Shown here piece by piece: positions 23,693-52,600 of a stretch of 64,000 nucleotides of DNA (positions are counted from its first letter, which is position 1; each line of letters starts with the position of its first letter). Source of the stretch: Mesostigma viride (lineage: Eukaryota > Streptophyta > Mesostigmatophyceae > Mesostigmatales > Mesostigmataceae); contig RPFO01000175.1 in NCBI GenBank assembly GCA_009746045.1, forward strand, positions 2,785,634-2,849,633. Reading direction: 5' to 3'. The position numbers and the translations under genes are program-made. The notes beneath the pieces are model-generated. The model was not told the DNA's origin. It searched no databases and was given only the letters and a program-made list of their open reading frames with translations.

Positions 23693-23762
23693 CTGGGACC
23701 ACACAGCATGCACGAAGAAACCATTCGTTAGTCCTGAGATATAGGAAGGGGAGCAGTGGTTT

Positions 23763-25466: not shown

Positions 25467-25665
25467 CCCTGGCTCCAGTATCCACTTCCTGGGCCGTCCC
25501 TTCCCCTCCTAGGATTCTCTGTGCTTGGTTGTGTTGTGAGAGTGGGCTGGCTACCAGCAGAACCCTCCCTAAGACTGCTCTGCAGTGACTGACCCCCACC
25601 CTGGACGCCTGTCGACCCTGGGACAGAGCCCTGGTCAATGAGCATCTCGTGACTAAAGCTAGCCT

Positions 25666-26163
25666 CTACAGGGGGTGGCTCAGCTTGGAGGTTTGCTGGT
25701 TAGCTGCCTGTGCCCTGGTGACAGCACCACACTCTACTACAGAAACCATGGCAGCACAAATATCCAGATCCTCGTGAAATGCTCCCATCAGATCCCTTCT
25801 TCTAGAGAGGGCGTCTGGCACCACATTCTGTGATCCTGGGACATACTGCACAGAGAAAGGATAGAATCCCCCTAGGTACTCCATCCACCCAGCCATCCTC
25901 TTACTCATCCTACTCTGTTCTAGCACGTGCACCAAGGGCCTGTGGTCAGTCATCAGGGTGATAGACTCTTGCCCTAGCCCATCTGTAGCACTGCTAGCCA
26001 CAGAAAACTGAGCTCCCTTCAACAGATGCTCCCACTTGTGACATGCTACCACTAAACCCAGCAACTCCTGCTCGTGTACAGGGTAGTTACGTTCAGCTGA
26101 GCTCATGGTTTTAGACATGTACTCCACTGGCTGTGGTCCATAGCCATGGTCTTGCATCAGCAC
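25666..26163 (-). pseudogene. Gypsy-1 RNase H part
   Basis: Ty3-type RNase H after RT, in a shifted frame. YMSKTMSSAERNYPVHEQELL carries the conserved Glu-containing helix, followed by LMTDHRPLVHVL and VPGSQNVVPDALSRR. It removes element RNA during cDNA synthesis. Confidence 0.8.
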
Positions 26164-26168
26164 AGCAC

Positions 26169-27107
26169 CTATGGCGCCTTGAGAGGCATCTGACCTAACC
26201 TGATAAGGTAGATCTGGTTGGGACCCACTAGCACAGGGGTGGATGTGAGCTTCTGCTTCAACAGGTCAAAGGCCTGCTGACACCTATCTGTCCACTCAAA
26301 CTGAACATCCTTCTTGATTAACTCAAGCAAGGGGGTGGAGATGGCAGCCATGTCAGGGATAAAACGCCTGTACCACCCCACCATGCCCAGGAAGGACTTG
26401 ACATCATGTGCAGACTGCAACACAGGCCACTCAAGGATGGCAGCAATCTTAGCATTGTCAGGTGTCATACCCAAGGAACTCAACTTGTACCCTAGGAACC
26501 CCACTTCATGCCCCCACTCCACCTTAGACCTCTTGACAGACAAGTGGTAGTGCTGGATGACCTTCAGGACCTCCTCCACGTTCTCCAGATGCTCCTTGAA
26601 CGTCTTTGAGTGCACCAGGATGTCGTCCATGTAGGCCACCACGCAGGTCCTGAACACGGGTCTTGCAGGGTCACACAGGTGGGCAATGTCTTTGAACCTG
26701 GGATTCCTGAGATCAGGGGAGATCTGAGGCAGAGAGTTCCCTGTCAGATGGCCAAAGATAGCATTCACAAACATCTGCATAGTAGCTGGGCTGTTGGAGG
26801 CCCCCATGGGCATCACAGTCCACTGGAACTGACCCCAGGGTGTGGAGAATGCAGTTTTTGGAATGTCCTCAGTAGCTATCCTGATCTGCCAGAACGCGTG
26901 TCTAAGGTCAAACTTGGTGAAGTAAGATGATCCAGCTGTCCTCTCTAGCAGCTCATCAATCCGTGGCAAGGGATACTTGGACTTCACTGTGACCTTGTTC
27001 AGGCCTCTCAGATCAATGCACAACCGCCATCCACCATCATGCTTGGGGACAAGCAAACACCCAGAGCTGAAAGGACTATTGGCAGGAAGAATGAGTCCAG
27101 CTTCCAA
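26169..27107 (-). pseudogene. Gypsy-1 reverse transcriptase
   Basis: Ty3/Gypsy RT with all boxes: CIDLRGLNKVTVKSKYPLP, FDLRHAFWQI, FQWTVMPMGASNSPATMQ, catalytic YMDD in VAYMDDILVHSK, FLGYKLSS, then the RT-RNase H link FEWTDRCQQAFDLLK. About 312 codons open, with frame changes at both ends. A 21-residue-scale insertion after the NAIFGHL region is unusual but does not touch the catalytic box. Confidence 0.85.
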
Positions 27108-28095
27108 CAGCCTGTCAAGATCACCTTCAGCTCTGCCATCTCAGCTGGCCCCATCCTGTACATGGGAACAAAGGGAGGCCTGGCACCATCCACAAGCTTG
27201 ATGACATGAGTGATTGGCCCTTCAGGAGGGTACTGTGGCATTTTGTCCTCAAAAATGGCAGCAAACCTGTCCAAAAGGGCATCATGCAGCTTCTGCTCCT
27301 CCTCTGTGACAGCTGGTACTGGGTTCACAGCATTCACCGTGTGGCCATGAGTCTCATCAGAGGGTGAGTTAGGAACCAGCTGTAAGAGAAAGACGTGTTC
27401 CACTGGGTAAGTAGCCAGGTAAGACAAGGTGTGATTGGCAGACCATACGTGCTTAAGTAATGCAGCACGTTTCTCTTCCAGTGAAGGCACCTTGACGTCC
27501 TCCTTGGCACCTGCAACCCCTCTCCCATCATTGACAGCCTCATTAGTAGAACAGCACTCTGTGACTGGTCTTTCTCCCCCCTTAATCACTGTGGTGGCGT
27601 CCCACACTGACCCATCCTGAAACTGCACCACCTTCTCAGACCACAAGATGGCAGGATTAGCAGACTCCAACCATGGCATCCCCAGAATCACATCAGCAGC
27701 AGTGAGTGGAATGACATCTGCTGTGACAGACAAGGTTTGACGTGAGCACACTTGAAAAAGCAGTTGCACGTAGCCAGGTGAGTTACTCTGCCTACCATCA
27801 GAATATTGGACCTTAACAGGCACAGGGTGGGGAGCACTGGTAGATGCAGCTCCTGCACCAAGGAAGTGGAAATGTAGTTACTTCCTGCACCTGAGTCAAT
27901 CATGAAGAGACATAAAGGCTGAGCCAAAGGGACTGGCACGTTCAACAGCCTAGCCTGGAACTTCAAGAGTTGACTGGGAATAGGAGGGCCCAATGGGGTG
28001 GTGGAATCAGAGGCAGACAAGTTGTTCACAGGACGGACATGCACAGCAGGCAAACCAGTTAACTCCACCGCTGGACGTAGTCCTGGGGGCTCCAC
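27008..28095 (-). pseudogene. Gypsy-1 protease and linker
   Basis: Retropepsin start at LFMIDSGAGSNYISTSL (about 27910-27860), with D-S-G active site and the later VILGMPWLESANP (about 27690). The domain crosses a frameshift near 27750. The following linker leads to the RT N-terminus, GARPPFVPMYRMGPAE. Confidence 0.8.
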
Positions 28096-29839
28096 TAGTT
28101 TTTTGGCAGCTCAGGAGGATGATCTGAAGACGAGCTCCCCACTGAAGGCTGCACCTGCTGATCCTCTATGCCGTCTGCCTCTCCTTCTCCCTCCTCCTCC
28201 TCTGCTAGGAGGTGCCACAGGGCGTTGACCATCCGACGCCTGTCTTGCCTGCTGAAGCCCTTGGGCTGGAATGGTCCCTTGCCCGAAGCCTGGAAGTTGG
28301 GTCTAAACCCAGGCTGTGCCCTGTGGTCGCTCTGGCTCACCCCAGGAGGGAAGGTGGATGGTCTGGTGAATGGAAGAACCCCCTGAGGACCCTTGGTGTC
28401 GCTGGGAACTGGTCTCGCTTGGGGCAATCCCGTGCAAAGTGTCCCAGCTGGCCACACGTGAAACAGGCTCCTTTGGACTGCTCCATGGCACTGAGCTCCT
28501 CCATCACAGCGTTCAGCTGGTTCAGGGGCTTCTTAACAGCAGGCGCCTGGTTGCCTGCAGCAGGCTCCCACTTGAGGGAAAAGTCAGGGACACGGCACAG
28601 CGTGAGGGCATAAGACAGCACAGTATCCCACTTCCACTCGACATAGTCGAAAGGGGAGAAATGCTTGTCAATATCCACCCTGACTTGAGGGGAGAGCCCA
28701 TGCAGAAACCTGTGAAGAGCTTCAGAATCAGAGCACTGGGGGATTTTGGCCCTCAGGTTGGTAAACGTCTCTACGTATTGTGGTAGTGTCAGGCCGACTG
28801 AGTACAGTTGGCCAACGCGTCCCGGTCCAGACGGAGCTGGTCCTGGGGAAGGAGAAAACGTCGAAATGAAAGCATGAGAGATGGCAAATCCTTGCAAGTA
28901 TTACCTGCTGAGGATCGTAAAAACTCATCAAACCTGTCGGCTGCACTGTCGCTCATTCGCTGTCGAACCATCTTCTTCTGGATGTCCAGGGAAAGTCGTT
29001 CTTCCGCTCGTTTGCCGTAGTTAGCAAAGTGGATAGCGAACACATCCTGGAATCGAGTAGAGAAATGATCGAAACTGCGGTGGGTTAGATTGGTGAGCGA
29101 CAGCTTGTCTACGGATTCGATTTTTGGAAATGGCGGGGCGGAACCTTGATGCGGTGGTATAGTGACGGTCACGGGGACGTCGCTGGCGGGGGTGGTGAAG
29201 GTGACCGAGGTCGTCTGCGCTGGATCCTGCCTATCGCTATCCTGCGTCTCATTCCTCGTAGTAACTGCGGTACTATTAGGTAAAACCCTTCCGTCACCCA
29301 ACCGAGGAGCCTCTCTCCCCAATCCAGCAACCATGTCACGCATGGCCGCCTCCTCCTCCTCAATTCTCTGACGAAGTCTTCCCACATCCTGTTCCACCTC
29401 CTCCACCATCTTTCTATACATCGCTGCGTGTTGTTCATCGTGTAATAATCTGATTTTAGCTGCTGAGAGGCGATCCGCTGCAAGTCTGGTCCCGTCTCTT
29501 CCAGGCGTGGTATTTAGCGGGAAAAGAAATGAAGATGCACTCGGCACAGGACTCGTTCGCGCGCTTGGAATCCTGGGCGACAGTGACGCTCCTCGACCCA
29601 CGCCTGTCAGCGATGGCTCGCCTGGTTGGAGACCAGATGCAATGACGGAAAACTTGGGCCCTATGGACAACGAGGGCCGCCTCACTTCAGACATAGAAGT
29701 ACGGTTGAAATCAAGTTGACGCCGTGGAGTACGAGCAGTTGTCTCAGCACCTTCCCTAGCAATGGGTTCCAGAGATGATGACGGATCGCTCACCTTGATT
29801 AGTAGGGGGTAAAGGTGATTGTGTCTTCGAACTACTCAT
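28096..29839 (-). pseudogene. gag: Gypsy-1 gag
   Basis: Probable ATG at 29839 (MSSSKTQS); the longest frame (29793-28789) continues after an indel near a five-base G/C run. Residues about 115-175 form a coiled-coil-like region (EEVEQDVGRLRQRIEEEE). A Gag capsid-like domain follows, then the knuckle CFTCGQLGHFARDC (about 28460-28420). Two more frame changes occur near 28800 and 28400. Gag packages the RNA. Confidence 0.75.
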
Positions 29840-29898
29840 ACTTCCACATGGAGTCGCGATCGTCTGCCTAGTAGAGACAACGGTTACGGCTGACTTCT

Positions 29899-29949
29899 AG
29901 TGTTACAGAGCAAGACAGTCACATCAGGATGTGTCTCTCTCTGTAACAC
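29899..29949 (-). other. Leader hairpin of Gypsy-1
   Basis: GTGTTACAGAG and CTCTGTAACAC pair perfectly over 11 bases around a ~29-base loop, between the 5' LTR and gag. The position suits an RNA packaging or dimerisation signal; function is inferred. Confidence 0.4.
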
Positions 29950-30047
29950 CGTAAGTTTTCCGCAACTCTATGAATCTTCTCGGATGACAGACATCTGATC
30001 AACGTTGTACTACCCGGAAGGTTGCGACTTCAAGAGAAACACCAAAG

Positions 30048-30067
30048 TAGAGATCCTCCGATACCAA
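30048..30067 (-). other. Primer-binding site of Gypsy-1
   Basis: Minus strand TTGGTATCGGAGGATC directly inside the 5' LTR. It resembles the initiator-methionine tRNA site TGGTATCAGAGC used by many plant and fungal elements. Confidence 0.6.
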
Positions 30068-30843
30068 TGTAACGACTAAAAATGATCATCAGCATCATCC
30101 ACAGTCCAATATGAAAGATCTTTTACCTGGGTTGCTTTCTGAGTTGCAGAACTTCAAGTATCCGAGCAACGTTGAGATGGAAATTCCACAGCACGTGATT
30201 TAGGGAATCACAACCCCTTGTAGACACAAAGACAAGCTCGTGTATAGACGACCTCTGTGGAACTGAAGGACGTCTATAGCCAAGGGGCTCTTATGATGGA
30301 CAACAAAGACAAGCTTTATTATACCATGGTGAATCAAAACCAACGTAGCAACAATGGCGACCCCACGTCCTTGATATCGACGTGCTTGTCGAACTTGCTC
30401 CAACCTTAGCCTGAAGAGAACCAATCAGAACCATGGAATCCTATACAAGATCTTCGTATCCATCCTAGTCACACAAAACAGAACAACACCACACACAGCC
30501 TGGCAGAATCTTTCCATGAGATCCAAATCTGTCGTGAGCACTGAAGTCCCAAAGGAGCATTTAAGACTCAATAGTACCAACCAACAAACTACAACCCCAC
30601 GTGGATCAGGCCACGACCAATGAGGGCTCCTATCAGTAGTACCAACCAACAAACTACAACCCTACGTGGATCAGGCCACGACCAATGAGGGTTCCTATCA
30701 GTTGGTTGACAAAGTATCAGCTCCAAGTACCGTCGTCTTAGAAACCTCATAACTTTCTCAATACTGATCCAAAAGTCCTTGAATAAAAGCCAAACATTCA
30801 CAAAACAAAGGATGTAACAACAAAGTCATTTTTGCTTGTTACA
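30068..30843 (-). repeat. 5' LTR of Gypsy-1
   Basis: 776 bp, TGTAAC...GTTACA, about 98% identical to 21380-22158 by eye, including the internal ~65-bp duplication. Confidence 0.95.
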
Positions 30844-30848
30844 TATTG

Positions 30849-32992: not shown

Positions 32993-33583
32993 GGCTGGGA
33001 TGTGTGGAGCCTGTGGACGTTGTACCGAGCCTGGGATGGCAGATTGCTTCGCTTTAAGTGGACATTTCAGATGAAGCCCGTCCCGGGCACTGATAGGAAA
33101 GTAGAATTTGCTAGACCTGTAGTGCTATAGAGTTTTCTGGATCTTCTGACCTGCCCCCTTCGGCCTTGACTGCGCCAGGTTTAATAAACAAAGATACGTG
33201 GCGCATGGTAGTGTGCTTTCATCTAGGGCGCTTGAATAGGGGTATGCCACATGGGTCCGCTGTGCTAGATTTTTCAAAGGCCTACCTCCACGGGGATGCC
33301 AATGAAAGTGCTCGGCTATGGGATGGCACCACACCCCTCTATGTTAGGACACCCAAAATCTGGGAGCCTCTTGTAGGAAAGAAGTTTATGCGGCTGATAC
33401 TGAAGGCGGTTGATGGGACCGTGGCTGGTCCACGGGCTTGGCGCCTGAGCCTAGAGCGCCTTCTCCTTGACACAGCTCGCATGGTGTACAGTGACTTGGA
33501 CCCCTCCTTGTTTGTGGGCGTCTGGAAGGGCGAGCTGGTGTTTGTGTTCGTGCATGCGGATGACTGTGATTGCTTTGGCCCGC
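32993..33583 (+). pseudogene. Copia-B RT, part 1, cut by Gypsy-2
   Basis: FKWTFQMKPVPGTD then FARPVV (33050-33120), a frame break, then INKDTWRMVVCFHLG, AVLDFSKAYLHGDA (motif with the first catalytic Asp, about 33265-33305) and the box VHADD (HADD at 33553-33564) in place of YVDD. The coding sequence reaches FGP, where Gypsy-2 inserted 19 bases after the catalytic box. It resumes at 44697. Confidence 0.8.
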
Positions 33584-33721
33584 TGTCGCGTCTGCGTGCC
33601 ACAACCTCCGACGCCACCATGCGGCTGGCCACTCAGCTTTGGTAAAACCCAAATGAGCTGAGCTGACGTGCCTGCCTTAACTGCATGCCCTGTGGGGTGG
33701 GCGAGGACCTGTCCCATGATT
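33584..33721 (-). repeat. Repeat B2 of Gypsy-2 (outer end)
   Basis: 138 bp starting TGTCGCGTCTGCG; matches B1 at 34973-35115 at about 95%. It abuts TSD CCGC on one side and A2 on the other. Confidence 0.85.
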
Positions 33722-34970
33722 AATGAAAAGAGGGCTCTCAGCCGAGGACAAGGAACTGTCCCTCGTGCCTGATGACCACCTTCTTGATCCCCTTGTGTAC
33801 CGTCGCGTGCCGCGTTTGAATATCCTTGCTGGGGCGTTAACTAGACGCTCCAACTACTCTAATTGCGACAATATGATGGTGCAAGAGGGTGCTTTTGCCT
33901 CCCCTGCTATAGAACAATGCTTTCACAACACACACTTTGCACAGTCTGATGATGAAGCCGCACATGCGGAATTTATTGAGAAAGTTAATACAATTACAAC
34001 ACGTTGATAGTCTCAATATCGATGCACTCCATGCTCACGAGCCCGCAGTTAGGCAGCGCTCCATGACATGCTACCGGCCTTGCTCCCAAGGAAAGGGAGA
34101 AACACGAAGGCCACTAACGAGAGACTCGAAGAGACTACACGCTGCGTGAGAGTCCTCTTCGACTATGAACCAAACCATTCGTCATGCCACACGCATGACA
34201 CACGCCACACTTGTCAGTCCAGCCAGGAATGCCAAAACTATCTTGCTGCCTGAACCATGCAAATAGAAACCGCATTCCAGTTGCCGTCCTGGCTTTCTAC
34301 CACACATGCCAACAAAAGCAGGAAGGCATCCCGACAAATCTAAATTGCTACCCTGTTGCCGATCTCATCTCCTAGAGGCTCCGGCATTTCTGTCCCTGGG
34401 AATGTCCGGCATTGAGTCACGTCCACCAAGGTCGAAGCATAATATCCTTCAGACAATCTGCACGCTCACACCTTGCGTGTGAGTGGCCCAGCAAACATTG
34501 CGTCTAATCGTTCCTTTCTAGAAGAAATCCCTTTGTAGGGCTGCCAGCGATTTCGCATTCATTCCAGCGATCTGGCTCCGCACCGCAAATTGTCCTTTTC
34601 CATTTTCTGTCCAGTCCTCATAACGTTGACCCGCTATTCTACACCACAAAGACACCTGGCCTGTCAATAGCCTCGGCGCTGTTGAAGTCCAGCAGTCCAG
34701 CTTCAGCTCCAGCTCCAGCTCCTAACACGCGTATGATCCTCTCGACGCTGCGCACTTGTGCTGCCGTCCGCTCAAGTCAGTGCTGCGCGCCCAGCTGTGC
34801 CTGGCCCGGCGCGCGCGCACGTACACTTTCGTCCGCTCTTATGCTGCAAGTGCTAGTGTCCCCCCCGGTCACTAGCCTTTGTCGAAAATGCGTAGAAAAC
34901 AAATTCCTTGCGCACGTCACCGGTCTTGTGCATAGTGGGCGCCCGGATGACATAGCTCGCGTCCGTGACA
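33722..34970 (-). repeat. Repeat A2 of Gypsy-2
   Basis: 1249 bp, about 99% identical to A1 (43441-44692). It contains no ORF with a recognisable motif. It is joined to B1 through the perfect palindrome GACAGCTGTC (34967-34976), the junction expected when two element ends meet. Confidence 0.9.
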
Positions 34971-34972
34971 GC

Positions 34973-35115
34973 TGTCGCGTCTGCGTGCCACAATCTCCGG
35001 CGCCACCATGGCGGCTGGCCACTCAGCTTAATTTGGTAAAACCCAAATGAGCTGAGCTGACGTGCCTGCCTTAACTGCATGCCCTGTGGGGTGGGCGAGG
35101 ACCTGTCCCATGATT
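34973..35115 (-). repeat. Repeat B1 of Gypsy-2
   Basis: 143 bp; starts (minus) AATCATGGGACAGG right after the polypurine tract, so it behaves as the start of the LTR U3 region. Confidence 0.85.
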
Positions 35116-35130
35116 CCCCCCCTCGCTGGC
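35116..35130 (-). other. Polypurine tract of Gypsy-2
   Basis: Minus strand GCGAGGGGGGG directly before B1; marks the 5' edge of the LTR proper. Confidence 0.65.
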
Positions 35131-35141
35131 GACCGGCCCCA

Positions 35142-36110
35142 TCACGAAGACAGCGATCGTACCAAGACAAGGGCAGCGGTGACCGCAGTCAAGCTGCGGG
35201 AGGTAAACTGCGCAGCGGTGCACACTGGACAAAACCAATCCCCCTCCGGAATGCTGGTGACCACTGGCTGCAAGCACTGCATGTGCCAACCACAGTTACA
35301 CTGATCACACAATAACATGGACTCCGCCTGATCGACCCGGTGACAAACCTGACACTGGGCGTCCTTGACTCGGCGAGACGTGTGCGGTTGGAGGTCGTGG
35401 ACCAAATTGGGCAGCGAGCAGGGACTGAGATTGCTGAGGTTGTCAGTCGTACGGCTCCCGTCGGCGCCCTCCAAAATTGCCACTCCCGATGGTTTGATAG
35501 CCACAATGCGCAAAATGGTGGGCCCCGCCTCCACATCCAAAGTGTGCTTCAGCTGAGTGCGCAGGAAAACATACTGCCCTGGCCTAAACCGCAGCTGGCG
35601 AGCCATGTATGCGCCCCCCCGGCGCTGAGCGTAGCGCAGGGAGTCCCTGTGCTGAGCAATGAACAAGTTGTTCATCGCGATGGGCATGACCTTCTTAAAA
35701 GTCTCTGCCCTGGCCAGCACCTCAACCAAAAATTGCTGAGCGTTGTCGAAGGCCATGGGTTCGGGGTGCGCAACCTGTGCCTCCGTAGGCAAAAGAGGAT
35801 TACGCCCGAACAGAAGGAAATACGGGGAGAAGGTAGCGAGAGACTCCTGGGGAGACATGCGATAACCCATGGCAATCCATGCCAACTCGCGATCCCACCT
35901 GGCCGACTCCGGCACCTGCAGGCTCCACTTGCGCAGCGCCTGCTTGACGGTCTGCACCAATCTCTCAGCCAAACCATTGGCCTGAGGATGCTCCCGAGAA
36001 GTGCGACGGTGATCAATAAGACATCCATCCAGCAACTCCTGGAACTCACCCCTGAACTCACCACCCTGGTCCGTGACTACCTCCGCGGGAGCCCCAAACC
36101 TGGTATGATG
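35142..36110 (-). pseudogene. Gypsy-2 integrase C-terminal half with PHD finger
   Basis: Continues the integrase after an indel near 36095. Catalytic D in VVTDQGGEF (about 36070), then the E region SREHPQANGLAERLV and WIAMGYRMSPQESL. A C-terminal RFRPGQYVFLRTQ domain follows. The ORF ends with a PHD-type Cys/His array (35360-35220): CQVCH, MLLCDQCNCGWHMQCL, GDWFCPVC, fitting C4-H-C3 with the conserved Trp before the last Cys pair. PHD fingers read the histone H3 tail, often K4 state. Where chromoviruses carry a chromodomain, this element carries a PHD finger, probably to steer integration. It stops 26 bases before B1. Confidence 0.85.
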
Positions 36111-37900
36111 TCCGCAAAATGCTTCGCTGTGGTAGCGGCATGCTTGTCAGCAATGGGGATCAACTCAACCCATTTGCTAAAGCTCTCCACGCATACCATG
36201 ACATAGAGGTTGCCGTCAGGGCTCTCCTGAAACGGCCCGCACAGATCGACGTGCCAGCGATAAAACAAGCCCTTGATGGGAAGCGACATCAGCTCCTTGG
36301 CACCATGATCTGCGCTAAAGTTAGCCTTGGTTCGAGCACACGGGACACAGCTGGCCACTACCTGGGCCACCGTGTGTCGCATGTTATTCCACCAATAGCT
36401 GGTCCGTACGAGGCTGAGCGTGCGATTGCCACCCAAGTGACCATACCGCTCGTGGTACGCCTGCACTATAGCAACGCGCTTGTCAGGCGGTGGGACGACC
36501 ACCCTACGCTTGCCCAACAGCTTGTACAAAACCCCATCTTCCCAACCATAGGTTGCAGCCCTGTGCTGCACCCTGTTCAACTCCGTTGCCTTCTGAGCAG
36601 GAGTCCAATCGACTGGAGTAGGAGTCAAGACAGCACCCTGCACTTGCTCCAACACTCGACCATCTAGCCAGATATCAGCGGTGTAGCAATCAGCAAGAGA
36701 GCTACGCGCTAAGAGAGCCTGCACAGCGATCAGCTGCTGCAGAGAAGGATCAATGTCAAAGGACAGAGACCTACCCTCTTCCATAGCGCACACAGCTTTG
36801 GATGGCGTGAATGGCGACGGCCGCACCGGGTCGTCGCTGATGCCGAAGTCCGCCACAGAGTACTCGACACTGCGCCACCACGCCTCCTCCTCATCGTCGG
36901 CCGCATACCCAGCAGCGTTCACAAAGACCACAGAACCAGACGAGCCCTCGGCACCCATGGCCCGGGCTCCAGTGTGGTCAACAGTGGTAGGCATGGCGTA
37001 TCGGGATAGCACATCGGCGTTGACATGGTCCTTGCCGGCCCGATGCACAATGGTCATGTGGTACTCCTGGATAATCATGGCCCATCGGGCGAGCTTACCC
37101 GTCAGGTTGGTGTTGGTCATTAGCCACTGAAGCGGCTGGTGGTCTGTCACCAGAGTAAACACGCGCCCAAATAAATACGGGCGAAAGTGCTTGATGGCCC
37201 ACACCACAGCCAGTGCCTCCCCCTCATAGGAAGAATACCGGCTCTCCGCTGGGTTGTTGCTGCGACTAGCATAAGCAATAACGTGCTCGCGCCCATCACC
37301 ATCCTTTTGCGCCAAGACCGCACCCAGTCCTACCTTGGACCAGTCGGTATATAACACAAATGGCAAAGCATAGTCAGGGGCGCGCAGAATCGGTGCCGAC
37401 GTGAGCTCCTGCTTGATTGTCTCGATGGCGCGTTGCTGTGCGGGACCCCACGCCCACACGCACCCCTTCTTGAGTAACTCGGTCAAGGGCTTCACCTTGC
37501 TGCTGAAGTTCTCAATGTAACCTCGGTAATAGCCAGCCAAACCCAAATACGCCCGCACCCCTGAGACATCCGTGGGTACGGCGGCCTGCGCAATGGATTC
37601 GACCTTGGCGGCATCAGGCGTCCGGCCACCCGGCACAATCTGATGACCAAGGAATGAGAGGGTCCGCTGGGCGAACTTGCACTTCTCAGGGTGCAGCCGC
37701 ATATTATGCTCCTCGAGAGCCAAGCGAACCTGCTCCAAGTGCGCCAGGTGCTCCTCAAATGTCGCGCTAAAGACGATTACATCATCAATGTAACAAGCGG
37801 CGAAAGGAAGACCTGCAAGCACTTTGTCCATAGCTCGTTGGAAAACAGCACTAGCGTTGCGGTGCCCAAAGGGCATGCGCACCCACTCATACAAATTGCC
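36077..37900 (-). CDS. Gypsy-2 RT C-terminal part, RNase H and integrase N-terminal half
   Basis: 605 codons open. RT boxes: YEWVRMPFGHRNASAVFQ, catalytic YIDD in ACYIDDVIVFSATF (about 37795-37755) and FLGHQIVPGG. RNase H: VLYTDWSKVGLGAVL (Asp), SRYSSYEGEALAVVWA (Glu) and FTLVTDHQPLQWL (Asp). Integrase zinc domain: H in YHERYGHLGG and CVPCARTK; first catalytic D in WHVDLCGPF. The 5' end is joined to the upstream frame across a G6 run (about 37905) and the 3' end breaks at about 36095. Both are single-base shifts. Confidence 0.85.
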   Translation of the reverse strand, partial: GNLYEWVRMPFGHRNASAVFQRAMDKVLAGLPFAACYIDDVIVFSATFEEHLAHLEQVRLALEEHNMRLHPEKCKFAQRTLSFLGHQIVPGGRTPDAAKVESIAQAAVPTDVSGVRAYLGLAGYYRGYIENFSSKVKPLTELLKKGCVWAWGPAQQRAIETIKQELTSAPILRAPDYALPFVLYTDWSKVGLGAVLAQKDGDGREHVIAYASRSNNPAESRYSSYEGEALAVVWAIKHFRPYLFGRVFTLVTDHQPLQWLMTNTNLTGKLARWAMIIQEYHMTIVHRAGKDHVNADVLSRYAMPTTVDHTGARAMGAEGSSGSVVFVNAAGYAADDEEEAWWRSVEYSVADFGISDDPVRPSPFTPSKAVCAMEEGRSLSFDIDPSLQQLIAVQALLARSSLADCYTADIWLDGRVLEQVQGAVLTPTPVDWTPAQKATELNRVQHRAATYGWEDGVLYKLLGKRRVVVPPPDKRVAIVQAYHERYGHLGGNRTLSLVRTSYWWNNMRHTVAQVVASCVPCARTKANFSADHGAKELMSLPIKGLFYRWHVDLCGPFQESPDGNLYVMVCVESFSKWVELIPIADKHAATTAKHFADIIPGLGLPRR

Positions 37901-38770
37901 GCCCCCCAGAATGCAAGCTTCCGCTGATCCTCCGGCGCAACTGCGATCTGATGAAAGCCGCTACGCAGGTCCAGCGAGGACACAAACTTCACATGAGGAG
38001 ATATCTTATCCAGGACATCATCCACACGTGGCATGGGGTAACGGTCCACGGGTGTGTGTGCATTCAGCAACCGCAGATCGGTGGCCATGCGCATACCCGT
38101 CCATGCCCCGGTGATAGCGTCCTTCTTGGGCGCAACGACAACGGCAGCAGCATAGCTGGAGGAAGATTGCCTGATGATACCGGCATCCTCTAACTCCTTG
38201 CATTGCTCGGCTACAAAATCCAACTCGGCCTGACTCAGGCGATGCTGGCGTCGGAACAAAGGAGTGTCAGTGTCCAATGGAACACGCATGGTCCCACCAT
38301 TGAAACACCCCAGTTCATCACTTGTGAAAGCGAAGGCCCCCCTTGCAGTGCCTAGCCACTTTAGCATGGCTGAGCGCTGCGCATCAGAAAGGTGTTCGCC
38401 AATAGCCCAGGGGTGCGTATCCGCGGGATCACCCACAGCTACCGCATGTGCCTCAAGATGCGGCGCCCTAGCCGCATCGTCGTGGAACAAGGAAAAGGCT
38501 GCCACACCTGGTGTGACACCCACCGCCGGAGCCTCGCGTGCCGCACGGTGTATTACCCGATGCAGCGTGGGCTCGCCGGCCAGCACGGTGCTGGTCAGCA
38601 GGGCGGTCATGAGAATGATAGTCCACACCTGTCGCAGACGCCACCCCCATGCTGATGAAGTCCCCGTCGCTGCAGGGCGCTTCAGTTTGGCTGCGCGCGC
38701 CTCAACCTGCTGAGGCGGATTGGCTGGGGACGCCCCCCCAGACTGGCGCACGGCAACCGATGCAAGCAGC
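37900..38770 (-). pseudogene. Gypsy-2 linker and RT N-terminal part
   Basis: After the methyltransferase comes a basic patch (AAKLKRPAAT, like half a nuclear localisation signal), then a hydrophobic run VWTIILMTALLTSTVLAG (about 38635-38580). Then a linker with the RT entry VPLDTDTPLFRRQHRLSQ, LEDAGIIRQSSSSYAAAVV, MATDLRLLNAHTPVDRYP and SSLDLRSGFHQI. It breaks at a G-run indel just before the YEWVRMPFG box. The hydrophobic run could be a buried helix or a membrane segment; neither is usual between protease and RT. Confidence 0.75.
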
Positions 38771-39735
38771 ACATACCCGACCTGCAACACCGACATAGCC
38801 TGGCCTATCAAAGACCAGCGCTCACTCTCGAGCACGCCCGGCAGCGCCGAGGCCCCGACATGAAAACCCATGCTGGCCTCACGAAATTCTGCGGGTGGCT
38901 GCACCAACAGACCGGTGGTAGTGTCCCAAACGAGACCCTTACCCCGATCACGGTATGCTGTCGACCCTTGGTAACTGACCAGGGTCGGCAGTGCACACAT
39001 GGGGCTCCCGACCCGGTTGACGCGTGCATACGGTGGGCGATCCTCGCTATCCACCTTCTGCGTGACTAGGTGGGAAGGCAATGCTACCTCCGCAGACACA
39101 CTCGGATGCTGCCTTGCTACGGCCCCAAAGACCGCCTGCACACCGGTCGCACACGCCACGTTGGTCCAATAGGCACGCAAACGATGCGTGAGCCCACCCA
39201 GCCCTGCGTTGTCACACACGATGGGCTCCCCCAGGAGTGCCACGATTGTAGCCCAGTCCTCCCGCACCGCCTGATGTGGGCTGTCACCCGCCACAACGTT
39301 CTCAAACAGATACGCAGGCGGATGGGGCTGACGCGACTGCAACAGTCCCACCACACGCAACAGTTCCCAGAACAGCGCGCTACGCGGATCGGCTAGCCCC
39401 CGCCCTTGCCCTGCCTGGCTCAGGCCCTGGCACTCCCAACCCGCATTACCAAGTCGATGGCATGATGCCTGCGCAACAACTGCTGCACCTGCACCTCACC
39501 GATGGCTCGGATATCTTGAGGACATTCCCCAAACGGGTCACGCCATGCTGATGGCGGAAACTGCGCGGGATACTCTCGCGACAACACGCCACAGTGACTG
39601 AAGTACACCTGACGCGCCTTGTGCGATGGCTCTACCGCGATGAGTTTACGGCACACGCCGCCTGCGGCCAAAAAGCCTGCAATGCCCCCTCCGATCCCCG
39701 CAAACAGTTCCAACACTACCGCACCCTTGGCAAAA
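38770..39735 (-). pseudogene. C5 cytosine DNA methyltransferase domain in Gypsy-2
   Basis: Motif I, VVLELFAGIGGGIAGFLAAG (about 39722-39660), binds AdoMet; VEPSHKARQVY follows (motif II). Motif IV with the catalytic Cys reads GWECQGLSQAG (Cys codon 39432-39430), Glu replacing the usual Pro of PCQ. Motif VI is FENVV (about 39305), motif VIII RLRAYWTN (about 39180), then a recognition region, EFREASMGFHVG (motif IX) and RWSLIGQAMSV (motif X, about 38820). All core motifs are in order. A single-base shift near 39440 separates motif I from motif IV. It would methylate cytosine in DNA; the full motif set suggests a recently working enzyme. The call rests on motif order, not alignment. Confidence 0.85.
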
Positions 39736-41756
39736 TCAGGGGCCTGCGGTAAGATTGCAGCAGAAAAATTACCTTGGGCCTCCGAGACACCCGGTTGCAC
39801 CAAAGTGAGGCCATGGCTGGCCATCTGAGGAATGGTGACGACGGCTTCAGTCACCCGCTTGCGCATAGCCAGCTGCCGCGTGGACGTCACAGCATCCAGC
39901 GACCACTGCGTGCGCATCTTGGCAATGCTCGCCGTTGGCTGAGGCAGCACCGTCCGATGCTTGTCCCACGCCGATGAGCCCGCCGCCCGTACCTCCACCA
40001 TGCTGACCTCCACCACGCCCGCAGCCGCTGAAGGGTTGAGGCGTGCAGCCCCGGCTGAAGAACTGAAGCATGAGACCGGCACACTGGCCCGCTTCAGGCC
40101 AGCCCCATCCCAATCAGGGATGTAAGATGCCTCCTCCGCCCTATAGTCCACCTGAACCATGGCGCGAGCAAGGACATCCACCCCGAGTAGTGCGGAATAT
40201 CCACACTTGTTGACCACCAGCGCATACGCGGACACGGTGGTCATGCTAGAGGCGCGCAACGGATTGAAAATCACGTTGACTTTAACCGCCGTCATAGCGT
40301 ACGGCTTACTAGCCGGACCCTGCCAACCTGACACAGACACGGGGCTTTCCACTAAGCCACCGTTCTCGTAGGTCAGGTTCAGCATGGTGGCCAAGTCTGT
40401 GCTGATGACTAGCGGCTGAGCACCGCTATCAAGCTTGACTGCGCCAACCAACGGACATGTCACCATGTCGCTCCATACATCTCCACAGGCTCCAACTGCT
40501 TGGAACGCTATGGACGGCTCACCATTGGGGTATGGAACCACCGTGGGAACCTGGGGAACTGCACTAGTGCGCTGCTGGCTACTTGTGCTGACCACTCCCG
40601 CTTGCACCACGGGCACTGCGGCTTCTACCGGCTGACGCCCGTAGGTGACGGACTCAGAATTGCGCAAGGTGCGCACATCATGCCCATCTGCGAACAACTG
40701 GATCTCGGACACAACCGACCCCAGCCACTCAACCCCCTTCTGCCCGAAGGTGTCGACCACCTGCCGTGCTGAAAACATGGGTACGTCCACAATGAACGGC
40801 ATTGGGTACACAGGCGCCAATCGCCTACGCTGCTCCAGCCCAGCAGGGTTCGCATGCTCAAAAGCAGATTGCACCCCAGCCAGCGGCATGGAAAAGGACG
40901 CGGGCAACTGCCCGGCAGGCAACATGGGTGCCTGCTGAAAAGAAAGCGGGCTGCGTGCCTGCTTGCCTTTGGTAGCCTCCGCAGCGTTGATCTCGACGTC
41001 ACCCGGCATGGGCGCCCAGAATGGGTCCTCCCGGTACACCGTCGCGAATTGGTTGGGGGGCGCCGTCGCCTCCTCACCATGCTTGATGGCAGCCACCTGG
41101 GCTTCCATCGAGTCGGTCTTGCCCGCCATCTCGGCGAAGTGGACCGTCTTGATGCCCGCGGCTGGACACTTGTTCATCAGGTGCCACTTCGTGTCTGCCC
41201 CATGCGGCTTCGTGCAGCGGCTTGGACACTCGCGACTAAGGTGCCCATCCTTGTCGCAAAGGTAACATTTACCGCGTGACGGGGTGGGTGCGCCCAGCGC
41301 GCCTTGCACGCCCTGCGCCTCCTGAGTCCCATCCGATGACGGCGGACGACCGCCTCCGCCTCGACCACCACCGCGACCCCGACCACCGTAGCCACTGCCG
41401 CCGCCACCACGACTGACACCGCCGCTGCCACCCTGACCGCCACCGCCGCTGCCCCCGTGACCGGCGTTGCCACCACCCTGAGTGCCGACATATTCACCGC
41501 GCCCCGCACCAGGCAGCCGCTGGCCACCCTTGACCGCGATGGCCTTCTCCATCTCAGCCATCTTCTTGCGCATCTCAGCCAGCTCAGACGAGATACCCTT
41601 CTCGCCTTCCGCACGCTTCCTGAGCAGCCGCTTGAATGCTGCACAGAGAGTCACCAAAGTCCACTCCCCACCGGGCGGCTCCGGAAGATCGATGGCCAGC
41701 AGGGGCACTGCACTCCGCCATAACCGGCAAGCCTTGGTCTGCGTATAATCAGGCAC
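39735..41756 (-). CDS. Gypsy-2 Gag C-terminus, zinc knuckle and protease
   Basis: The open frame from about 41756 runs through the protease into methyltransferase motif I at 39420. It has a coiled stretch (SELAEMRKKMAEMEKAI), a Gly/Arg-rich region, and the knuckle CYLCDKDGHLSREC (about 41270-41228). The protease site is VKLDSGAQPLVIS (DSGA at 40430-40419) with the later strand SALLGVDVLARAM. The frame is in phase with motif I, so protease and methyltransferase were one polyprotein. A Gag/PR/MTase/RT arrangement puts the enzyme where only a linker normally sits. Confidence 0.8.
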
Positions 41757-43281
41757 TTTGCCCGCAAACGCGAGAGCCGGTCAAGGGAGAAAGCCGGATC
41801 CTCACCCTCGGCGACGGTGAACGCTCCATTCCATTCCGCGATGGCCTTGACGTGCTCAACTGGGTACTCCAGCCGCAGTTGCTGCCACAGCTGCTCTGCC
41901 GGGTCGACATCGAAGATGATCGAGTCGAGATCCGGTGTGCCCATGTCCGTGAGCGCAAACCATATGTCCGTGCGATGACATCGGTCCACGAGCGCTCGGT
42001 AATGCTGGACCAAAACCTGGACCTTCTTCTTGGTCAGGTCATGGAAAAAAGGTGAATAAAATCCATCACCATCTCATGGCGAAGAGGATACCCCGAGGCA
42101 TAACGATAAGTGTTACAATGAGCTCGGAAGAGCTCATAGGCTTCCTCTAAAGTCGCACCCGTGCCTGCTGAGGTGAACTTCTCGCGAAGCTCCACCTTGG
42201 GCAGCGATGGCACACGAGTGGATTCGCCATGCACGCCGTACGGCATGCGGTGGGGTCGCTGGACGTCGTCGCCCTCACCCCATGGTATGCTGGCTACCTC
42301 CCGATCGACTTGGCCCCAGCCGAAGTCTGACCGAGTGCCGCCAAGCCTGGGCCGCCCTGCGGTGCCACCCAACGGCGTTGCTGCCGCCGTCATGGGTGGC
42401 CGACCTGTGCTAAACAAGCCACCTGATGCTCCCCCCCTGGGGGCTGCACCATACCCGCCGCGCCACGATAACGTGCCTTGGTTGGGTGCCCGTAGGTTCC
42501 CCCCCAGCGTATAAGATGCGTCGGCAGTCGACCGGGTGCCTACCCGACCGACGTTCGGCTGCAGCTCGTCATCCTGCGCCATTTCCCCGTCGCCCCGCCG
42601 TTGACCGCTTGGTCCGACGCGTGGCTGACTGGGCTCAACGTTGCGTAGTGGACCTGTCCCACTGCGCTCTTCGTCGAAGTGTCCGCGTTGGTCGCGCAGC
42701 GCCTCATGTCGCCGCGCTTCCTCGGCAGCGGCCTCCTCGTCGGCAGCCTGCCTGGCCTCGGCGTCGCGTTGGGCCGCAGCTTGGCAGGCGCGTGCAGCTT
42801 CCGTGGTTGCCTCCGCCTGCCGCCGTTGCTCAGCGCGCTCCGTAGCACGCCTCGCTTCAGCCGTAGATTCCGCGCGCTCCAAAGCAAGTCGCACAGTTTC
42901 TTCAACAAGCGTCGCCTGTTGCGATAACTGCGTCGCTTGCTGAGCTCGGAGTGCCGCCAGCTCTGCCGCTTGCTCTTGCAGCAGGCGCAGCACTTGGGTA
43001 AGAGCACCACCGTCCCCTGCCGAAGAAAGGGAAGGCGCTCCATTACCTAACAAAGCGGTGTCCGCACTAGTGCCGAGACGACCGCTGGGCGGGTCAGTTG
43101 CTTGACCGCCCGTAGCTGCCGGCGCTGACCCACCACTGCCTGATGCTGTGGGGTCAGTTCCTGACATGTTGATGGTGGTATCGACCCTGGAGAGCTCCTG
43201 CCCGTCGGTGTCGACGCCCGTGTTGGCACAGCCTGCGTGGCTTGCCAAAAACGCTGTGACCGACCTAGTGTGATATGACAT
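41651..43281 (-). pseudogene. gag: Gypsy-2 gag N-terminal part
   Basis: From an ATG at 43281 (or MSGTDPTAS at 43167). A long Ala/Glu/Arg/Gln-rich coiled coil covers about residues 95-205 (LLQEQAAELAALRAQQ). A Gly/Arg/Pro region follows, then a capsid-like segment (LEEAYELFRAHCNTY). Frame changes near 42040 and 41770 split it into three ORFs that read on into the knuckle-bearing part. Confidence 0.7.
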
Positions 43282-43426
43282 AAACTGCCACAACCACTAC
43301 CAAGTAGCAACGGTCTAATCTGAAAGACTTAATGGTTGATCAGGCCACTATGTGTGCTAGTCTTCCCCAGAAAACTGCACACCGTCTCTCTTTGCTGAAA
43401 TGAAAATGTTCCTTTGCAGATGGAGC

Positions 43427-43440
43427 TAGTCTCTTCGAGT
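43427..43440 (-). other. Candidate self-priming primer-binding site of Gypsy-2
   Basis: Minus strand ACTCGAAGAGACTA starts immediately after the A1 repeat, where a primer site belongs, yet has no tRNA-like TGG. Its exact 14-base complement lies within A1 on the same strand (43856-43843). RNA starting near 43856 could fold back and prime, as Tf1-type elements do. Confidence 0.5.
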
Positions 43441-44692
43441 AATGAAAAGAGGGCTCTCAGCCGAGGACAAGGAACTGTCCCTCGTGCCTGATGACCACCT
43501 TCTTGATCCCCTTGTGTACCGTCGCGTGCCGCGTTTGAATATCCTTGCTGGGGCGTTAGCTAGACGCTCCAACTACTCTAATTGCGACAATATGATGGTG
43601 CAAGAGGGTGCTTTTGCCTCCCCTGCTATAGAACAATGCTTTCACAACACACACTTTGCACAGTCTGATGATGAAGCCGCACATGCGGAATTTATTGAGA
43701 AAGTTAATACAATTACAACACGTTGATAGTCTCAATATCGATGCACTCCATGCTCACGAGCCCGCAGTTAGGCAGCGCTCCATGACATGCTACCGGCCTT
43801 GCTCCCAAGGAAAGGGAGAAACACGAAGGCCACTAACGAGAGACTCGAAGAGACTACACGCTGCGTGAGAGTCCTCTTCGACTATGAACCAAACCATTCG
43901 TCATGCCACACGCATGACACACGCCACACTTGTCAGTCCAGCCAGGAATGCCAAAACTATCTTGCTGCCTGAACCATGCAAATAGAAACCGCATTCCAGT
44001 TGCCGTCCTGGCTTTCTACCACACATGCCAACAAAAGCAGGAAGGCATCCCGACAAATCTAAATTGCTACCCTGTTGCCGATCTCATCTCCTAGAGGCTC
44101 CGGCATTTCTGTCCCTGGGAATGTCCGGCATTGAGTCACGTCCACCAAGGTCGAAGCATAATATCCTTCAGACAATCTGCACGCTCACACCTTGCGTGTG
44201 AGTGGCCCAGCAAACATTGCGTCTAATCGTTCCTTTCTAGAAGAAATCCCTTTGTAGGGCTGCCAGCGATTTCGCATTCATTCCAGCGATCTGGCTCCGC
44301 ACCGCAAATTGTCCTTTTCCATTTTCTGTCCAGTCCTCATAACGTTGACCCGCTATTCTACACCACAAAGACACCTGGCCTGTCAATAGCCTTGGCGCTG
44401 TTGAAGTCCAGCAGTCCAGCTCCAGCTCCAGCTCCAGCTGGCCTAACTCGCGTATGATCCTCTCGACGCTGCGCACTTGTGCTGCCGTCCGCTCAAGTCA
44501 GTGCTGCGCGCCCAGCTGTGCCTGGCCCGGCGCGCGCGCACGTACACTTTCGTCCGCTCTTATGCTGCTAGCGCTAGTGTACCCCCCCGGTCACTAGCCT
44601 TTGTCGAAAATGCGTAGAAAACAAATTCCGTGCGCACGTCACCGGTCTTGTGCAGAGTGGGCGCCCGGATGACATAGCTCGCGTCCGTGACA
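43441..44692 (-). repeat. Repeat A1 of Gypsy-2
   Basis: 1252 bp, about 99% identical to A2 (33722-34970); ends CGTCCGTGACA before TSD CCGC. It contains the 14-base complement of the primer site (43843-43856) and CAGCTC repeats near 44415. The B part is absent on this side. Confidence 0.9.
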
Positions 44693-44696
44693 CCGC

Positions 44697-44883
44697 GCGA
44701 ATGGATTGCCTGGTTCCATAGCATTGTGCATGCCAGGTACCCTGTGGGCAAGCTTATTTTCCGTGAGCCGGGCAAGGTGGTTCAGTTCATGGGCATGGAC
44801 ACTGTCATGGATCACGATGAGCACGGCAAGTGGGCGATGTTGCTTCAGCCCAAGGGCAGCTATTATGTGCAGGATTTGGTTAA
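44697..44883 (+). pseudogene. Copia-B RT, part 2
   Basis: Continues RT from FGP at 33583: PREWIAWFHSIVHARYPVG, then VVQFMGMDTVMDHDEHGKW and SYYVQDLVK. Sister copies have the same segment (FPLGR...VVFCGVQ) between the HGDD box and RNase H. It is cut at TTAA (44880-44883) by a DNA element and resumes at 47174. Confidence 0.8.
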
Positions 44884-47169
44884 GGGGACGGGACACCCCC
44901 GAATTTTTTGGCGCCAAAAAATTCGCGCCGGAGCCAAAGGTAATAAATTTCACGTGCACGGTGCGCGCACCCCTTGCGGAAGTGGCCATGGCGACTGCGT
45001 TCAGGCGAAACTACCACACTAGGGCAGGCGAAATGCAAAAATTTTACTCGAATCTAAAAGGAGATGAGTTTATGATGTTAGTTTGTGGCGGAAATCAGCT
45101 GGTTTACAATATCGCTGTTGTCTTTTTATGCCATCGGCATGGGGGGTAATCTGAATTTTTTGGTCGCGCGGAATGAAATAGAACTCATGATAGCGGCTGT
45201 AAAATAGCGGTTTTGGGGGCTGTTCTGACCTTGAAGCAGGCATTAATATCGGATGCATCGAATTCTAAACCGAGCTGGTGCTTTTTGCCAGATTTTCGGC
45301 CATTATCGGTAAGTAATTGTTCAGACCTGCGCAGTGCGCGTCTGACCTGTCCATGGAATAACGGCTGTTGTTGCGCGCCTGGGCGAGGGATTTACGAGGG
45401 CAAGGTACAGATTTGTCGCGAACGTTATCTGCTATCGGTGCTTTCTTCTATGAGCTCATCGTTCGAGGTTTTTTGCGTTCTTTTTGGGCAGTTTCCGCCA
45501 GCTAGCTCGCCGTCGCTTGCCGTTGTGTTGTCGAATACCTGGCAGCTTTAGATTGTTTTCGTTGATGTCGTGATCAGGGCCGCTTCAGTCGCAGCCTATA
45601 GCTCTTCGGGAAGGTATAAGGCATTTCATAAAACGTGTTCTGGCAAGGATGTTGTGCGTATGGACGCTTCTTGCTGTGTGAGAGTGACGCACCCTCTCCT
45701 CACAGGCCGCAGCGGCATCACAGCGCTCATGCGGTGAAGGGCCGCCAATGGTTTCTTTGCATTTTATCGTGCAGGGATGGAAGTGTTATAGTGATGATGA
45801 TGTTGGAGATATTGCATTTGTGTGACTGCATGTAGATAGCTGGCACCAATGGTTGTTTGAGCTTTCCTTTGTTATGATGATGTGACAAGACTACAATGTG
45901 CTGAGCTAACCATGGTTGACATGCATGACTGCATGCAAGCTATATATAGCATGTTCCTACTTGGTTCCTTGCCCTCCATAGTCCCAGTTTGTCATTCATG
46001 CCGGGGAGGACAGTTTAGGAGGTGTTGTTGAGCTGATTAGCTTGGTTGGCATCAACCTTACTCTCTAACCTGGGAGAAACATATGAAATGCTGCTTAGGC
46101 ATGTTAGGGCTACCATTGTCAAGGCTATGAACATATTTATAAGGCTGGCCATGCTGGAGGGATGATGAAGACATATGAGGTGCGTGGCCACCCCTTTGTA
46201 CATTGTAAACATACTCAGCATGGTTTTGGTGCATGTTGGATGGCATATGAAGTGGCACTGTGGGGTTACTAACTTACTGAGTGGTCCTTAGCGCCTTGTC
46301 AGGTGGTCATATAGGAAACCCATCAACTTGAGTAGTTCTTGTCTCAATGACCCCCACGTTGAGCATGCGTTGCCGTCAGCGTGCAAGAGTCAATTATGTG
46401 TGCTTTGGTCAGTTTGCAGATGTCTTTGATGAAGAAGGAGGTGCCAGTGTGGCTGAATGGTTACTATAGTTTCCTTGTAGTGTCTACATGGGTGGCCGTC
46501 TTAGAATGGTTGTAACTTGGGCAGTTCTTGTCAGAACGTCGTCAAACCTTGAACATAGGAGGTACCATATGTGCAGAGGATGGTAGTACGTGGTTTGGCC
46601 AGTTTTCACGTGGCTTAGATGTATAAAGGGGTGTTAGTGTGGTTAAATACTAGCTAAAACCTCCGTCAGCGTCATCACAGGTGGCAATCTAGGAATATCC
46701 ATCAAATAGGGCTGCGCTTGTCAGAATGACCTGAAAATTTGGGGCTGCATGTCCCCCAACCTCTAGTATTTGGGAATATATGATTTGGCACTATTCCATG
46801 TGTTTATGATTTGATTTATTTTTTTTTAATTAAAAAAGTACCCTTTTTGCGGGAAAATCCATCAATGTGTCTAAACATCATTATTTTGTGCTCAAAATTA
46901 GGCAGGCTTTCTCAAAAGTCAGGGAACTATGCGGGAATATATGATTTGGTCCCAATATGTTTGCCCATTGTCCTAGGAAAAATGTGACTAAAATAGCGTC
47001 TTTTTCTATTTTTAGCGCGTAACCGGTGTATGGTGGGGGCTAGTACCACCCCCAAGTGGCTGGAAATTTTTTTTTTTATCATATTTATGGTCCCCAATCA
47101 TCTTTGGATTTTTAGCACATGCATAGGTATGGTTTCCAGAAAAGTGCCCTTTAGGGGTATCCCCTCCCC
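44884..47169. mobile_element. TTAA element 1, non-autonomous, piggyBac-like
   Basis: TTAA at 44880-44883 and 47170-47173. Terminal inverted repeats GGGGACGGGACACCCC and GGGGAGGGGATACCCC (14 of 16). Removal restores Copia-B codons LVKEVMSS in frame. The 2.3-kb interior has only short ORFs with no transposase motif, an AT-rich patch near 46810 and no RNA gene. TTAA duplication is the mark of piggyBac transposition; relation to a named family is not shown. Confidence 0.75.
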
Positions 47170-48132: not shown

Positions 48133-48579
48133 AGTTGTAAAGCATTACAAATGATGCTGGGCAGGGCTCGGAAAAATACTGTCGAAACGACACATTGAAA
48201 TAAGCGTATGCATTATTCTGTCCCGGTTTTCTGTTATGCAATATATCAGTTTGCCGCACGTGATGTTGATTACCTGGATGCGGACAATGAATCCGGCGAG
48301 ACTCATCATGTCGCTGGGCACAATAGTTGCCACAATGGCTGCAGTCTTGCCACGGGTTGTTAAGATATAACCATGGCAGGCTTAAGTTTGGCGTCTGGTG
48401 TCTAGAAGGTTCCATGTGCACAACGCATACTGCATTGCCATACTTGTAACGACAGTGCAGGATAAGGTTTCTAGGCATCTCTAGAAGGTTGACGCTGTAA
48501 ATGTATAAATTAAAGCAATAAACAGCGGCCAAGGAGCCGCAGCCATTGCAACCAAACCATTCCAAAGTCATTCTCAACT
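48133..48579 (+). repeat. 3' LTR of Copia-B
   Basis: 447 bp uninterrupted, AGTTGTAAAG...TCTCAACT, with AATAAA at 48517-48522. TSD CACAC follows. It shows the empty site for the tandem insertion in the 5' LTR. Confidence 0.9.
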
Positions 48580-48827
48580 CACACGACAACCGACTCCCGC
48601 TCACACGTCGTGAGGAGTTGCTGATCGGATAAAGAAGCCGAACGATGAATTGCTGTACATAAATGCCACGCTAACGGCGTCGTGAACTGACTTCTTGCAA
48701 TCACGATTAAAGTGCCCGGCCCAATAACAAATTGGAGACACACGACCCCGCAACTGGAAACGAGTATGGCCACATTGATATACACGGGTTTGATAAAGTA
48801 AAACCTCGCATTCGGTTCAGGCTAGCC

Positions 48828-51980: not shown

Positions 51981-52452
51981 GTGGTTGGTTGGTTGGTTGG
52001 TTGGTTGGTTGGTTGGTTGGTTGGTTGGTTGGTTGGTTGGTTGGTTGGTTGGTTGGTTGGTTGGTTGGTTGGTTGGTTGGTTGGTTGGTTGGTTGGTTGG
52101 TTGGTTGGTTGGTTGGTTGGTTGGTTGGTTGGTTCAATGGTTGGTTGGTTGGTTGGTTGGTTGGTTGGTTGGTTGGTTGGTTGGTTGGTTGGTTGGTTGG
52201 TTGGTTGGTTGGTTGGTTGGTTGGATGGTTGGTTGGTTGGTTGCTTGGTTGGTTGGTTGGTTGGTTGGTTGGTTGGTTGGTTGGTTGGTTGGTTGGTTGG
52301 TTGGTTGGTTGGTTGGTTGGTTGGTTGGTTGGTTGGTTGGTTGGTTGGTTGGTTGGTTGGTTGGTTGGTGGGTGGGTGGGTGGGTGGGTGGGTGGGTGGG
52401 TGGGTGGGTGGGTGGGTGGGTGGGTGGGTGGGTGGGTGGGTGGGTGGGTGGG
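51981..52452. repeat. GGTT microsatellite passing into GGTG
   Basis: About 385 bp of (GGTT)n with three interruptions (near 52135, 52225, 52243), then about 85 bp of (GGTG)n. Period four gives open frames in all phases, so the long WLVG and NQPT reading frames are artefacts. Flanking DNA on both sides of Copia-E is GGTN-rich. Confidence 0.95.
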
Positions 52453-52600
52453 TCAAGGGTGGGTACGTGGCCGGATGGGTGCATATGGGGCCAGCTAGCT
52501 GGGTGTTTAGGTGGTTTGGTGGTTGGCTCATTGGATGGGTGAATGCCTCCTTATTACCTTATTGGTGTGTGGGTTGCGCAGGTGCCTGGGTGGTGGGTGA

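Follow-up and report, generated by a model that had tools for sequence, protein, structure and literature searches.

A 64,000-nucleotide stretch of Mesostigma viride DNA (contig RPFO01000175.1; hereafter the window) contains, at 33584-44692 on the minus strand, a Gypsy-type retrotransposon whose protease and reverse transcriptase (RT) flank a C5-cytosine methyltransferase (MTase) domain. Read in its own sense, the element opens with repeat A1, followed by a 13-nucleotide (nt) putative primer site, a gag-like open reading frame (ORF), a CCHC knuckle, an aspartic protease and the MTase. Downstream of the latter lie RT, RNase H, integrase, a PHD finger, a G-tract and the repeats B1-A2-B2. The pol domains followed the Ty3/Gypsy order, with RVT_1, RT_RNaseH, Integrase_H2C2 and rve in sequence (rve itself below its cut-off). 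The features are, in the sense of the element:

33584..44692, minus: whole element, termini TGTC...GACA (repeat boundaries; end-combination test)
44693..44696, no strand: target-site duplication CCGC (plus strand), upstream side of the element (flank comparison)
43440..44692, minus: repeat A1, about 1.25 kb (99% identical to A2)
43844..43856, minus: 13 nt of A1 that pair with the primer site (perfect match); would mark the 5' end of the RNA under Tf1-like priming
43427..43439, minus: putative self-priming primer-binding site, directly after A1 (pairing with A)
42037..43296, minus: gag-like ORF, N-terminal part (ORF; no Pfam match)
41226..41270, minus: gag CCHC zinc knuckle (PF00098, E 8.3e-5)
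40173..40433, minus: aspartic protease, DSGAQ...LLGVDV (Pfam below cut-off, E 0.028; aligns with the protease region of relatives P0003 and P0004)
38791..39713, minus: C5-cytosine MTase domain, motifs I to X, motif IV being ECQ (motifs, Pfam, relatives)
39444..39461, minus: stretch with the frame break between motifs I and IV (frame comparison)
36080..38256, minus: RT, RNase H, integrase zinc-binding domain and start of the core, with a further frame change in RT (domain matches)
35145..36146, minus: rest of the integrase core and C-terminal PHD finger (PHD at 35220-35354; PF00628, E 1.1e-9)
35116..35122, minus: polypurine tract GGGGGGG (sequence)
34973..35115, minus: repeat B1 (self-comparison)
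33722..34970, minus: repeat A2 (self-comparison)
33584..33721, minus: repeat B2 (self-comparison)
33580..33583, no strand: target-site duplication CCGC (plus strand), downstream side (flank comparison; in-frame joined flanks)

Within the MTase domain, motif I (LELFAGIGG) was located at 39713-39687, motif IV (AGWECQG) from 39444, motif VI (FENVV) within 39312-39292, motif VIII (HRLRAYWTN) within 39189-39160, the motif IX region at 38898-38863 and motif X (GQAM) within 38808-38791, all on the minus strand. A previous reading made from the sequence only had placed the enzyme at 38770-39735, with these motifs in order and in sense with the element and with motif I in the protease frame. Its interval matched the domain well, every motif was recovered between 39713 and 38791, and motif I indeed shares frame 2 with the protease motif LDSGAQ. 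The catalytic Cys of motif IV, the ENV of motif VI and the RxR of motif VIII, residues typical of C5-cytosine MTases, were all present. The Pfam family proposed by that reading, PF00145 (cut-off 22 bits), was matched above cut-off by the motif IV piece (27.0 bits, E 3.8e-6) and below it by the motif I piece (13.8 bits, E 0.041), while an NCBIfam scan returned dcm matches far below their cut-off. With no Pro before the catalytic Cys, the protein is best described as a C5-MTase homologue with putative activity.

Motifs IV-X are in frame 1, as is the 5' part of RT, and a frame break separates motif I of the MTase from motif IV. Other frame changes were found in gag, RT and integrase, so that this copy encodes no full polyprotein. 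We infer that the breaks are peculiar to this copy, through damage or an error in its sequence, and are no family trait. The catalogued protein P0001, from the Mesvir1 gene set of M. viride (4 member sequences listed), is 97-99.6% identical to the gag-protease-MTase pieces of the window, reads in frame across the break and matched PF00145 with 44.6 bits (E 1.6e-11). Its gene model stops before motif IX and thus lacks motifs IX-X; there is therefore no near-identical catalogued protein with all motifs in one frame.

More diverged relatives carried the domain as well. P0003, P0004 and P0007 each combine protease and MTase; the two domains exceed the Pfam cut-off in P0003 and P0004, whereas the protease of P0007 falls below it (E 1e-4). 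The C-terminal part of the MTase was joined to an RT region in P0006, P0011 and P0015, RVT_1 being called by Pfam in P0015 only and the RT of P0006 and P0011 being placed by alignment. Together with the domain order in the window, these proteins supported the earlier proposal of a Gypsy element with a C5 MTase between protease and RT. That proposal was to fall if all other copies lacked the domain, and the opposite was found among catalogued diverged relatives; a chance fusion in one copy was rejected on the same ground. From motif IV onward, the window MTase was 45% identical to P0002 and 56% identical to part of P0003, and its RT pieces were 43-44% identical to P0015; the MTase thus appears conserved about as tightly as RT, P0002 and P0015 being different proteins and maybe different elements. 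P0001 and P0002 shared 41% identity over motifs I-VIII, and the window stretch from protease through linker to motif I showed 21-32% identity to relatives other than P0001. All relatives came from protein searches. A search with residues 650-880 of P0001 returned only P0001 itself and the bacterial-type P0018, missing P0003, which was found otherwise; absence from such searches is therefore weak evidence. Retention of the MTase at one position across related elements suggests that the element depends on it.

An unusual trait of most of these enzymes lies in motif IV, where the canonical Pro preceding the catalytic Cys is replaced by Glu. The ECQ variant of PCQ pointed out by the sequence-only reading is real and recurrent: motif IV was readable in seven of the eight retroelement MTases compared (P0001-P0008), with ECQ in five (P0001, P0002, P0003, P0004 and P0008) and PCQ in two (P0005 and P0007). 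The seven residues AGWECQG were identical across P0001-P0004. A tree built to trace ECQ recovered a single origin of it at a support of 56/81 only. Viral enzymes kept the Pro in 80/80 loci (79 SPCQ, 1 SPCV), these being the 80 retained of at least 584 relatives among at least 600 viral-contig stretches (26-32% identity). The 79 loci with usable translation collapsed into only 2 clusters at 65% identity, so the 80 amount to far fewer independent cases. Carriers of AGWECQG among prokaryotes or viruses were also considered, a DNA pattern for it occurring in 58 genome-contig and 7 viral-contig stretches; they were rejected after tblastn of P0001-P0003 against these 65 loci (best E 0.20).

Regarding affinity, the best solved match of the retroelement MTases was of the DNMT3A/3B/3C type, both by alignment profile and by fold (P0002 model). 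The profile matched the DNMT3 type at E 5e-20, versus E 1e-6 for DNMT2-type chains (tRNA enzymes). Yet, neither of two marks of the DNMT3 family was found: motif IV is ECQ or PCQ instead of the PCN of vertebrate DNMT3A/3B/3C, and in another tree, which held two DNMT3 rows only, the retroelement MTases fell on a separate side of a branch from DNMT3. Identity to DNMT3A was 24-32%. Viral C5 MTases with SPCQ were compared as well: IMG/VR locus L001 (24-38% identity) has the DPRSALF and YWTN stretches in common with them and outscored DNMT3A against 7/7 MTase members, a comparison that favours viruses since L001 had been preselected as best viral match. Among phage families phrog_116 and phrog_363, phrog_116 matched P0001 at E 5e-18, and the best viral model match reached E 9e-12. 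No retroelement context was seen for the viral SPCQ enzymes among the 80 loci retained.

The repeats are laid out as A-coding-B-A-B, with A1 and A2 99% identical (8 substitutions and 2 indels in 1253 nt) and B1 and B2 95% identical (2 substitutions and 2 indels in about 140 nt), which are small counts. The conventional layout, one full-length direct long terminal repeat (LTR) per end, was not observed. Of the 12 x 13 pairs of ends tried around the repeat boundaries, a single one left matching flanks 4 to 6 bp long, namely TGTC...GACA bordered by CCGC. This agrees with the Ty3/Gypsy integration signature of TG..CA ends and a target duplication of 4-6 bp. Excising the element and one CCGC restored a continuous ORF across 33281-33583 and 44697-45000 (plus strand). 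A Pfam scan of the joined-flank protein gave no match; the protein aligned, gap-free at the join, with an RVT_2-bearing protein at 3-3554 (34% identity), and the interrupted ORF is called copia-type on the basis of this alignment (RVT_2 below its cut-off). The insertion is considered young, with little time passed, because of the 99% identity of the A repeats. Assignment to DIRS/Ngaro elements, which use a tyrosine recombinase and leave no target duplication, was rejected in view of the DDE-type integrase and the 4-bp duplication.

Tf1/sushi-type Gypsy elements self-prime by pairing a site adjacent to the 5' repeat with the 5' end of their RNA. Here, the 13 nt directly following A1 pair perfectly with positions 837-849 of A, a length equalled anywhere in A in 1 of 5000 mononucleotide shuffles, and are a putative sign of Tf1-like self-priming, although repeat layout and MTase set the element apart from that type. 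No TGG-type tRNA primer site was seen in the 40 nt after A1, and ARAGORN found no tRNA genes in the window. Given the putative self-priming site and the G-tract before B1, the LTR of reverse transcription would be B+A, whereas the integrated ends are the start of A and the end of B.

Gypsy elements that combine a Dnmt3-type domain within Pol with A-coding-B-A-B repeats were published from Klebsormidium (de Mendoza et al. 2018, PMC5890265), and the present element is of this published kind. Cases from Klebsormidium and Symbiodinium in that paper bear out the sequence-only reading's statement that eukaryotic retrotransposons have captured C5 MTases. KnitGypsy-Dnmt3 of Klebsormidium nitens, compared by its published description and not by sequence, shares with our element a charophyte host, Gypsy domains, a Dnmt3-type MTase in the Pol ORF and the DIRS-like repeat layout; because the same layout is stated for it, A-coding-B-A-B can be argued to be heritable. 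Conversely, it is reported with conserved key residues, in contrast to ECQ here, and the portion consulted does not describe for it a self-priming site, TG..CA ends, a 4-bp duplication or a PHD finger. SymbioDIRS-Dnmt3 (MTase in Pol) and SymbioLINE-Dnmt of Symbiodinium, also retrotransposon-borne cytosine MTases in that account, belong to tyrosine-recombinase or LINE elements of dinoflagellates, unlike the Gypsy element described here. The additions to the published kind are the conserved ECQ, the protease-MTase-RT order in several diverged elements and a wider spread. M. viride is likely a new host of such elements. No retrotransposon MTase of Mesostigma was found in the literature searched, and the consulted portion of Liang et al. 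(PMC6947507) names only CMT/DMT genes.

The PHD finger at the integrase C-terminus (35220-35354, minus strand) had BAZ2B, Lid and BAZ2A as best solved matches and occupies the place where the other Gypsy element of the window has a chromodomain. REM1 of Chlamydomonas, a Gypsy-related algal element, likewise carries a PHD finger; it is not known to carry an MTase. Between MTase and RT, 38575-38628 (minus strand) encodes a hydrophobic stretch, VWTIILMTALLTSTVLAG, that resembles a membrane helix by eye. The other Gypsy element (21380-30846, minus strand), which served as control, has RT, integrase, chromodomain and conventional 0.78-kb LTRs (98.5% identical). Its RT shares only 28-38% identity with the focal RT, and a scan of five of its ORFs gave no PF00145 match at E up to 0.01.

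Elsewhere in the window, a 2.2-kb stretch at 7751-9908 displayed repeats in A-x-B-A-B order (7751-8095 equal to 9327-9673, and 9164-9332 equal to 9740-9908), and its flanks matched 48133-48422 and 48425-48580, an apparent empty site. It is possibly a small non-autonomous split-repeat element. Another copia-type element lies at 3-4676 (minus strand; RVT_2 and CCHC both below cut-off). Self-comparison revealed a short-period tandem array pattern at 51982-52481, near which 52601-52949 is repeated at 60142-60488.

We regard it as reasonably probable that a Ty3/Gypsy-type lineage took in a DNMT3-like C5 MTase between protease and RT and kept it over a long divergence for methylating its own complementary DNA (cDNA). 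This reading builds on the domain order, the motif set, the DNMT3-like profile and fold of the relatives, the conserved ECQ, the carriage by diverged elements and the insertion with a 4-bp duplication, all of which were observed. The MTase would be made as part of a Gag-Pol polyprotein, cut out by the protease or left joined to RT, and packaged with element RNA and RT. It would then methylate cytosines, most likely in CG, on newly made element cDNA before or at integration, and new copies would arrive already bearing the host's mark. In M. viride, 5-methylcytosine is present, mainly in CG. Such a pre-set mark could shield the cDNA, direct or postpone silencing, or reduce harm to the host, and the PHD finger behind the integrase would contribute targeting to chromatin.

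Several observations weigh against this reading. The focal copy is frame-broken, and its Pro-Cys pair has lost the Pro. Among the relatives, the motif VI Glu is replaced by Lys in P0007 and the first motif VIII Arg by Pro in P0004, and P0008 falls below the PF00145 cut-off. P0001 alone gave only weak matches to solved structures, none of them a DNMT3 chain with an E limit of 1, and the motif IV loop of the structure model had a pLDDT of 49, so the active-site geometry there is a model only. CpG observed/expected was 0.86 in the element (whole window 0.64, left flank 0.45, right flank 0.80); CpG depletion is thus absent and leaves no mark of past methylation, although the insertion is young. 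According to PMC5890265, the DNMT3 domains of SymbioDIRS methylate CG in yeast and KnitGypsy-Dnmt3 did not, a negative that its authors do not treat as decisive because human DNMT3B failed likewise.

The same negative yeast result, the Pro to Glu change in five of the seven readable MTases and the missing motif VI Glu of P0007 would fit an enzyme that no longer methylates and serves, like DNMT3L, as a scaffold binding S-adenosylmethionine or DNA and aiding RT or integrase with cDNA. We consider this unlikely, though worth keeping in mind, as the Cys, the ENV Glu and the motif VIII RxR are retained in P0001, P0002, P0003 and P0008, Cys and ENV are present in all five ECQ proteins, and the identity of AGWECQG across P0001-P0004 is unexpected for a dead enzyme. 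Fusion directly upstream of RT and conservation of a non-canonical motif IV could alternatively mean that RNA or the RNA:DNA hybrid of reverse transcription is the target instead of duplex DNA, with ECQ as an adaptation to it; RNA methylation was also suggested for SymbioLINE-Dnmt by the authors of PMC5890265. The closest folds, however, are DNMT3-type DNA enzymes, with the tRNA-methylating DNMT2 type ranking far lower by profile, and this alternative seems improbable. The idea that the MTase is a neutral, role-less passenger of one recently burst family could draw on the broken state of the sole copy seen in the window and on the neighbouring Gypsy element that manages without one; it is hard to reconcile with relatives at about 28-56% identity that retain the MTase at the same place with invariant residues, and we give it little credence.

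Beyond methylation of its own cDNA by a captured DNMT3-like enzyme, a broader and rather doubtful scenario would see an old, single protease-MTase-RT Gypsy lineage, wider than the one published charophyte case, whose Pro-to-Glu site acts on nascent cDNA or RNA:DNA hybrid and whose A-coding-B-A-B repeats with integrase-type ends reflect circular or DIRS-like replication via a DDE integrase.

Cytosine methylation normally silences transposons, and an element preserving its own DNMT3-like enzyme would have made a component of its own out of this means of silencing. The effect of the conserved ECQ is a sharp biochemical question, since it concerns a residue regarded as all but indispensable in C5 MTases. 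Whether there was one old capture or several becomes testable through the diverged protease-MTase-RT elements, and the combination of split repeats, TG..CA ends and target duplication poses a separate question, that of the replication route of such Gypsy elements.
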